Shown here in pieces: positions 79 through 12,486 of a stretch of DNA of 64,000 nucleotides (the stretch's first letter is position 1; every line of letters starts with the position of its first letter). A program made the translations under genes and the position numbers. Under the pieces are notes generated by a model that saw nothing but the letters and a program-made list of their open reading frames with translations, was not told where the DNA came from and did not search any database. This stretch comes from Desmodesmus armatus (lineage: Eukaryota > Chlorophyta > Chlorophyceae > Sphaeropleales > Scenedesmaceae), in contig VIIQ02000100.1 of the NCBI GenBank assembly GCA_007449985.2, forward strand, positions 62,001-126,000. The letters run 5' to 3'.

Positions 79-82
79 AAAA
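79..82 (-). terminator. Pol III terminator of the permuted tRNA-Ser
   Basis: On the minus strand a TTTT run starts two nucleotides after the 8-bp leader/trailer helix of the tRNA-Ser gene. A T-run of this length at this place is the usual RNA polymerase III stop and supports a transcript of leader, 3' half, spacer, 5' half and trailer. Confidence 0.6.
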
Positions 83-93
83 CGCAACCAGGC

Positions 94-207
94 TTCTAGT
101 CAATCGCCTTAACCGCTCGGCCATCACCGCACGATACTAGCTGCATCCCCTTCGGGATAGAATCGCGGCGAGCAGGATTCGAACCTGCGCGGGAGAACCC
201 AATTGAT
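94..207 (-). tRNA. Circularly permuted tRNA-Ser(AGA) gene
   Basis: Read on the minus strand, the 3' half of a type II tRNA comes first (207 to 164) and the 5' half follows (130 to 94), separated by 33 nt (163-131). Rejoined they give an 81-nt tRNA. The acceptor stem is 7 bp (130-124 with 171-165, one G-U). The anticodon stem is a perfect 5 bp (104-100 with 206-202). The anticodon is AGA at 97-95, the T stem is 5 bp, the variable arm is long, and the discriminator is G at 164, as in eukaryotic tRNA-Ser. The leader (221-214) and trailer (91-84) are perfectly complementary over 8 bp. They bring the two ends together next to the anticodon loop, as expected for splicing-endonuclease circularisation of a permuted pre-tRNA. 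The B box precedes the A box. Permuted nuclear tRNA genes are known from red algae and prasinophytes. It lies in or beyond the last visible sucrose synthase intron. Confidence 0.9.
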
Positions 208-1033
208 TGCTCGCTGGTTGCTGATGCCAATCGAAATTACCAAAATCTTTATATTCTTGCAACCGCTATTTTTTAAAATTTGCGTTTTTTGCTGTTTTGG
301 GGCCGAAGTTACATTTTACTCATCAGAAGAGTGCTGGAGATGAGTGATACTGTGAGACTGTGGCTTAGCTTATGGCCCCGGTTGCCACTGGTCGGCAGCT
401 TATGGTCTGGATTGACAGGCCCCAATGTAACACAAATCATCATCATCATAGCTTATGGCCTGAACTGACAGGCCCCATGTAACACAACTACTACTACTAG
501 GGGTCATGTCCATTTCCACACTGAAACAGCAGGTGCCTGTCACTCAGTCATGCGTATTCATGTTCATGTGCGTTCCACAAGGCCGCATCTTTCAATGCTC
601 TATGCCTTGCACATGCTTGCATGTCTTGCTAACTTTGTGTGTCTTTGCAGGTACTTGCTGAAATATGCAGGTCGGTGGCGCTTTGTTACTTTTGGGGGGA
701 TGATGGATTGGTGTCCCCGGTTGCCAATGGTCGGCAGCTTATGGCCTGAACTGACAGGCCCCATGTAACACAACTACTACTACTAGGGGTGCCTGTGAAC
801 TCGTGCCTGTGTGACACAAGTGCACAACCCATCCCTGGGACCCACTTCCCAACTTGGCAACTCTTGGAGTGGTGTCCCCGGTTGCCAATGGTCGGCAGCT
901 TATGGCCTGAATCAACCCATCATAGCAGTACCACCCCTTCTTCAAGTCAGTAGGATCTGCAGATACACACGGCCCTTGTGACATGCATGCCTTTCACAGG
1001 TGCCGCCTTGTTGATGATGATGATCTGTGTTGA

Positions 1034-2838: not shown

Positions 2839-12486
<9,648 letters not shown>

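Follow-up and report, generated by a model that had tools for sequence, protein, structure and literature searches.

The window, by which we mean the whole 64,000-nucleotide stretch of Desmodesmus armatus DNA that was analyzed, carries on its minus strand (221-79) a class II tRNA-Ser(AGA) gene in which the 3' half is encoded before the 5' half. When the two halves are rejoined, the acceptor, anticodon, T, variable-arm and D pairs all form, and the anticodon loop is split as CTAGAA/A, that is, at the junction 37/38. The first-pass annotation of this DNA had described a permuted nuclear tRNA-Ser(AGA) whose halves meet at the anticodon-loop splice site. Its coordinates for the halves, leader, trailer and T run are exact to the base, its T4 terminator is the TTTT at 82-79, and the identification is borne out by the complete cloverleaf on rejoining and by nine relatives in the same assembly (Table 1). 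A conventional intron-containing tRNA-Ser at this locus was considered and rejected, because such a gene needs its 5' half first and the order here is reversed. An organellar origin was rejected as well, since the contig has nuclear-type genes (an MCM gene and one for an AMP-binding enzyme) and a nuclear-type composition. Elsewhere in the window, an ordinary tRNA-Asn(GTT) gene lies at 6440-6515.

Table 1. Parts of the permuted tRNA-Ser(AGA) gene (window coordinates) and contigs on which the permuted genes of the assembly lie
Feature	Position	Strand	Remarks
TATA-like element TATAAAG	247..253	-	46 nt upstream of the 3' half
Leader, h' strand GCAACCAG	221-214	-	leader as a whole 208..221
Leader, H strand CGAG	213-210	-	opposite anticodon-loop positions 35-32
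Leader, 2-nt bulge CA	209-208	-	adjoins position 38
3' half, tRNA positions 38-73	164..207	-	variable arm, T arm, 3' acceptor strand, discriminator G73; CCA unencoded
33-nt spacer	131..163	-	small hairpin ATCCC GAA GGGGAT; predicted to be excised by tRNase Z and RNase P
5' half, tRNA positions 1-37	94..130	-	anticodon AGA; last part is anticodon loop CTAGAA
Trailer, GC (93-92) and h' strand CTGGTTGC (91-84)	84..93	-	perfect 8 bp with 221-214
TTTT, predicted Pol III terminator	79..82	-	downstream of the trailer
Permuted Ser(AGA)	C96 (window), C572, C560, C88		DNA search with the window locus
Permuted Ser(CGA)	C786		DNA search with the window locus
Permuted Ser(TGA)	C97, C1, C692		DNA search with the window locus
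Permuted Leu(CAA)	C73, C786		class II A-box pattern

In the assembly examined (115.8 Mb, 831 contigs), ten permuted class II tRNA genes were found on nine contigs: four for Ser(AGA), three for Ser(TGA), one for Ser(CGA) and two for Leu(CAA). The DNA search with the window locus gave nine matches at eight places, every one a permuted Ser gene. A class II A-box pattern occurred at 23 places, comprising the eight permuted Ser genes, the two permuted Leu(CAA) genes, ten conventional Leu genes with AAG, CAG or TAA anticodons (one of them, L041, decayed) and three chance matches. In all ten permuted genes the 3' half precedes the 5' half on one strand, rejoining yields a full cloverleaf and the junction lies at 37/38; the copy on C560 has a single D-stem mismatch, A·C. 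The spacers span 8-67 nt and are locus-specific in sequence, and none of the ten starts with CCA, so that an encoded CCA is absent throughout. A count of other Ser(AGA) genes, which the first-pass annotation had called for, gives three more, all permuted, and an intact one was not found in the searches made. What that annotation overlooked is that the window gene is one of ten permuted genes, which seemingly replace the conventional Ser(UCN) genes.

Rfam at the gathering score and linear ARAGORN both missed the permuted gene in the window, as expected from its permuted order. ARAGORN run on circularized 220-nt segments detects it, but as an Ala isotype, and the circular calls are likewise wrong (Ala instead of Ser) for several permuted genes; in the shuffle control for this procedure, one of three shuffled windows produced a spurious wrap match. 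A leave-one-out covariance model, trained on the other nine permuted genes with the window gene excluded, scores the window gene at 111.6 bits (E 1e-28), and nothing else in the window matches at E up to 10 apart from one sequence of 6 bits. The eight conventional Ser(GCT) genes score no higher than 32.5 bits under this model. Matches to conventional tRNAs reach E 1.2e-6, and therefore E-values alone cannot tell permuted from conventional genes, whereas bit scores can.

The alignment of the ten genes in their permuted structure is paired in 98.1% of 270 cells, with two-sided changes in 16 of 27 pairs. None of 500 shuffles matched either the paired fraction or the number of two-sided changes, and 29 of 500 equaled the number of further pair types, the kinship of the genes being ignored in these controls. 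The helix between leader and trailer is less telling. The first-pass annotation had emphasized its perfection in the window gene, and the 8 bp are indeed present, but this is not the best conserved pairing of the family, which is that between the leader and the anticodon loop. Its shuffle p value is 0.09 (any register, G-U allowed), and the other nine genes have eight contiguous leader/trailer pairs (C88) or four to seven, not all in register and none with p < 0.05. On its own, the 8-bp helix is thus weak evidence for permutation. The folding energy of the window transcript is ordinary (z −1.12; 27 of 200 shuffles are equally stable), and the predicted fold of the linear transcript lacks the acceptor stem. 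The case is carried by the completeness of both tRNA halves and by the nine relatives, not by the 8-bp helix or the folding energy.

The splice-site context at the anticodon loop, which had also been pointed out beforehand, is upheld by the family as a whole. With the leader numbered backward from position 38, its bases −6 to −3 stand opposite anticodon-loop positions 35 to 32 in an arrangement resembling a bulge-helix-bulge (BHB), with bulges beside 37/+1 and −1/38 and a closing pair −7/+2. Across the ten genes, helix H and the closing pair are paired in 45 of 50 cells (90%), compared with 10-42% when slid by one to three columns. With kinship again ignored, no shuffle of 500 reached the paired percentage, the number of cells with two-sided change or the covariation score; for the BHB alone, the number of pairs with two-sided change was equaled by 147 of 500 shuffles and that of further pair types by 338. 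By inspection, the Ser(TGA) genes have a strict 3-nt/4-bp/3-nt BHB. That of the window copy is relaxed: H has three of four pairs because position 34 is unpaired with the leader, and a 4-nt bulge precedes h', here the 8-bp helix.

The behavior of position 34 divides the family by anticodon. It pairs with the leader in all six genes whose anticodon does not start with A, through varying partners (C34-G, U34-A), and in none of the four Ser(AGA) genes (Fisher p 0.005, kinship ignored). The leader base opposite A34 in these four genes (L002-L004 and the window gene) is G, A, C or C, and never U. We speculate that A34 is perhaps left unpaired with the leader for inosine editing, and that the pairing may be tuned accordingly.

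Signals expected of a transcription unit are found around the permuted genes. All eight permuted Ser genes, and neither permuted Leu(CAA) gene, have TTTT no more than 17 nt past the 5' half; the background frequency of such a run in the window is 2.3% (427 of 18,282 stretches). TATA lies within 60 nt upstream in four of the ten permuted genes, including that of the window (at −46), against one of 40 ARAGORN calls of conventional tRNAs at the loci examined (Fisher p 0.004), a few of these 40 calls being mis-typed or tRNA-like repeats. Three close paralogue pairs are 89-96% identical over the body, 65-75% over the leader and trailer (20 nt each) and 25-50% over the flanks beyond. Because identity drops beyond leader and trailer, the conserved unit corresponds approximately to the predicted pre-tRNA. 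As a separate observation on conventional genes, AAACCCT, which we take to be telo-box-like, stands within 60 nt upstream of five of seven Leu(CAG) genes (L043, L048, L053, L055 and L089), and may serve conventional tRNA genes as an upstream element.

A conventional Ser(UCN) gene was found neither with the A-box patterns nor with rejoined Ser(AGA) and Ser(TGA) queries of the assembly. The rejoined Ser(AGA) query gave 13 matches at the eight permuted Ser loci and the rejoined Ser(TGA) query seven matches at five of them, in each case to separate halves only, and none of these matches extends more than 4 bases beyond 37/38. As a positive control, a rejoined Leu(CAA) query recovered the two permuted genes and also four conventional Leu(CAG) genes, each matched in one piece across the junction, so that this type of search is able to see conventional genes. 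A looser A-box pattern occurred at 46 places: six are known permuted genes, 20 were read and the remaining 20, with two mismatches, were left out. The 20 that were read comprise eight conventional Ser(GCT) genes, one Leu(CAG) gene and 11 places without a tRNA. For CGA, the absence of a conventional gene is judged from the A-box patterns and the likeness to AGA and TGA. The absence of conventional Ser(UCN) genes is therefore strongly indicated yet unproven, because only first-look candidates were scored, the rejoined queries for this box covered AGA and TGA, and the assembly may be incomplete. As far as the searches reach, the UCN box appears to be served by permuted genes only and the AGY box by conventional ones.

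The genes of other isotypes that were read, for Ser(GCT) (all eight), Leu(CAG/AAG/TAA), iMet and Cys, are conventional. The iMet and Cys patterns were modelled on eukaryotic tRNAs in general. The iMet pattern gave 66 matches, of which 51 were left out and 15 loci were read. Eight of these are complete conventional genes (six with an intron of about 12 nt), and the other seven are 5'-half fragments in repeats. The Cys(GCA) pattern gave 22 matches; the seven places read comprise four complete conventional genes and three without a tRNA. An RF00005 scan of the assembly covered 63 of 2577 candidates by scoring.

Several tRNA-related repeats were noted along the way. L066, L067 and L072-L076 (around 1501-1520) are dispersed sequences that open with the 5' half of tRNA-iMet, without a 3' half in the flanking sequence that was read; one downstream sequence is common to L066, L073 and L076, and one to L067 and L075. 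L019 1501-1574 and L022 1501-1574 are two tRNA-like genes of almost the same sequence. Their anticodons are TCA and ACA, their downstream flank is shared, and they represent either a repeat family or unusual tRNAs. Among the RF00005 candidates scored, a tRNA-like repeat with identical scores of 59.6 bits occurs at G000:C359:1492-3910 and about 20 other places; on C359, four copies are spaced by about 780 bases.

Three contigs differ in composition, the GC content of loci on C38, C76 and C278 being 30-48% as against 52-62% at nuclear tRNA loci. We take C38 and C76 to be chloroplast contigs and C278 to be the mitochondrion, and we assume a single organism as the source of both the nuclear and the mitochondrial contigs. 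C278 is a mitochondrial genome in which UAG is read as leucine, UCA serves as stop and AGA apparently encodes alanine. Of its 40,363 bases, 40,000 were read; they contain a tRNA with a CTA anticodon, and the only Ser tRNAs among them are for GCT and GGA. The nad4 and nad5 ORFs (Pfam) use TAG 44 and 36 times and both end in TCA, nad1 uses it 15 times and ends in TAA, and a putative cox2-like ORF uses it seven times and ends in TCA. In nad4, TAG stands at conserved leucines, and AGA stands at both alanines of the HVEAPTAGSV motif of the best-matching chain, the only place where AGA sites were tallied. UAG as leucine is common to Scenedesmaceae, and AGA has been reassigned to alanine in Coelastrella, Hariotina and Rotundella, according to the excerpt of PMC6821328 used here. 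This mitochondrial code places the assembly in the Scenedesmaceae and, taken by itself, would perhaps suggest Coelastrella or Hariotina, the former a member of the core chlorophyte class Chlorophyceae.

Taken together, these observations lead us to assign a probability of about 0.9 to the reading that window 221-79 is a functional type II (37/38) permuted nuclear tRNA-Ser(AGA) gene, predicted from sequence, and one of ten permuted class II genes, eight of which apparently supply all UCN-reading Ser tRNAs. Alternatively, circular or tandem pre-tRNAs could have left dead or retro-integrated copies at the permuted loci, the real Ser(UCN) tRNAs coming from conventional genes that escaped the assembly or the searches. 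The genome does hold a decayed conventional tRNA copy (L041), and the genome searches scored only part of the candidates. Against this, the stems are preserved through two-sided changes, identity drops at the pre-tRNA ends and all eight Ser genes carry T runs. Conventional Ser(UCN) genes were missing from the pattern and rejoined-query searches, and yet UCN codons are in use, accounting for 6 of 20, 5 of 28 and 10 of 24 serine codons in the three nuclear ORFs checked. We consider this explanation quite unlikely.

A split tRNA, with halves transcribed separately and joined in trans through the leader/trailer helix, would likewise need complementarity between leader and trailer. It has a very slim chance of being correct, as the halves lie only 8-67 nt apart on one strand in all ten genes, TTTT is absent from every gene body, and the T run of the eight Ser genes comes after the 5' half. 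The position of the gene, only 79 bases from the window edge, might raise the suspicion of an assembly inversion or of chance matches to tRNA fragments. The window, though, lies inside a 380-kb contig, 62 kb from the contig start, and the same order recurs at ten loci on nine contigs with locus-specific spacers; we give this possibility next to no credence.

For the functional permuted gene, we propose a circular pre-tRNA pathway, inferred from the arrangement of its parts. Pol III would start about 15-20 nt upstream of the 3' half (the TATA of the window copy being at −46) and stop at the T run. Leader and trailer would then pack onto the anticodon stem to form a bulge-helix-bulge. After cuts by the splicing endonuclease between 37 and +1 and between −1 and 38, a ligase would join 37 to 38 to give a circular RNA. 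RNase P and tRNase Z would excise the spacer from the circle, after which CCA would be added; A34 would be edited to inosine. A working Ser(UCN) tRNA probably requires such an RNA circle, because every gene found has its halves swapped. A search with the catalytic domain of tRNA splicing endonuclease (PF01974) gave two loci above the cut-off, confirmed on ORFs, which by their motifs we take to be Sen34-like (L101) and Sen2-like (L102). For TFIIIC, the Tau95 profile found no match, and no control match either, and the B-block profile had a single weak match of exon size (E 0.0135; 22.4 bits, the cut-off being 22).

Alignments among the four Ser(AGA) genes run on through the spacer (71-86% identity over 151-176 nt); the genes thus seem to have multiplied in already permuted form. 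The hairpin CTGGTGCAACACCAG or a near variant lies directly 3' of four conventional Leu(CAG) genes (L048, L053, L054 and L089). The spacers of the permuted Ser(AGA) genes L003 and L004 contain it as well, and that of a third such gene has a looser form. In the tandem-duplication model, as given in the excerpt of PMC3978253 used here, the spacer is the sequence that formerly stood between two tRNA copies. The hairpin common to Leu(CAG) 3' flanks and Ser(AGA) spacers would fit this model, although the likeness is only suggestive.

It is possible, at rather less than even odds, that Ser(UCN) permutation is ancient, essential and shared. It would then predate the split of Mamiellophyceae, Trebouxiophyceae, Chlorophyceae and the green ancestor of chlorarachniophyte plastids, would have been kept by the dependence of a whole codon box on circular pre-tRNAs, would have spread here by duplication of whole units and would have been lost in Chlamydomonas. 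If all Ser(UCN) tRNAs come from permuted genes, the translation of four codons depends on circular pre-tRNAs, and if this is true in an alga with a 116-Mb genome, permutation is more than an oddity confined to very small genomes. The size of the family offers enough natural variation to work out the rules of BHB, of spacer, and of TATA versus internal promoter use, and genome comparison could test an ancient against a repeated origin in green algae.

Permuted tRNAs are known from other algae. Auxenochlorella belongs to the Trebouxiophyceae, not, like the present host, to the Chlorophyceae. Type II (37/38) permuted tRNAs with hBH motifs are described, in the portion of PMC3978253 on which we draw, from four prasinophytes and the Bigelowiella nucleomorph. 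Its Table 1 lists permuted Ser(AGA), Ser(CGA) and Ser(GCT) for Micromonas pusilla, the Ser(AGA) spacer being 64 nt, and permuted Ser(CGA) and Ser(TGA) for Ostreococcus. As far as that portion goes, the prasinophyte type II genes and the window gene are alike in isoacceptors, junction and hBH-type splice context, and the 33-nt spacer of the latter falls inside the known range of 1-74 nt (PMC3978253). The difference lies in number and host, with ten genes found here, four of them for one anticodon, in a chlorophycean with a 116-Mb assembly. Moreover, all eight Ser(UCN) genes found here are permuted and all eight Ser(GCT) genes read are conventional.

The nucleomorph of Bigelowiella natans has a permuted Ser(AGA) with junction 37/38 and 5-nt spacers (PMC3978253, same portion), compared with 33 nt in the window gene. 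Permuted Ser(AGA) and Ser(CGA) are given for the nucleomorphs of both B. natans and Amorphochlora amoebiformis in the excerpt of PMC4494063 used here; these are two isoacceptors also permuted here, but the genome is that of a relict green-algal nucleus. The first-pass annotation had held that a serine tRNA would widen the known range, but it does not, since these sources already list Ser(AGA), Ser(CGA) and Ser(TGA) as permuted (PMC3978253 Table 1; PMC4494063). Its parallel suggestion for a core chlorophyte is likewise anticipated in print, by the permuted tRNA genes reported for Auxenochlorella in the excerpted text of PMC12633428. Like the Desmodesmus host, Auxenochlorella is a core chlorophyte with nuclear permuted tRNAs. 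Among the matches listed from the open-licence literature, there is no earlier report of permuted tRNAs in Sphaeropleales or another chlorophycean.

In Cyanidioschyzon merolae, both the circular intermediate and the aminoacylation of a permuted tRNA have been shown experimentally, as cited in the same portion of PMC3978253. Its genes resemble the window copy in the upstream TATA, the downstream T run and the BHB at the junction. As described there, however, C. merolae is a red alga with several junction positions and mostly one gene per anticodon, whereas here all ten genes are joined at 37/38. Chlamydomonas reinhardtii has no permuted tRNA genes according to that source (PMC3978253). Permutation as such is therefore known from other algae, and its extent in this alga exceeds the textbook examples: what is unusual is that apparently a whole codon box is permuted, and this in the class of Chlamydomonas, which reportedly lacks such genes.
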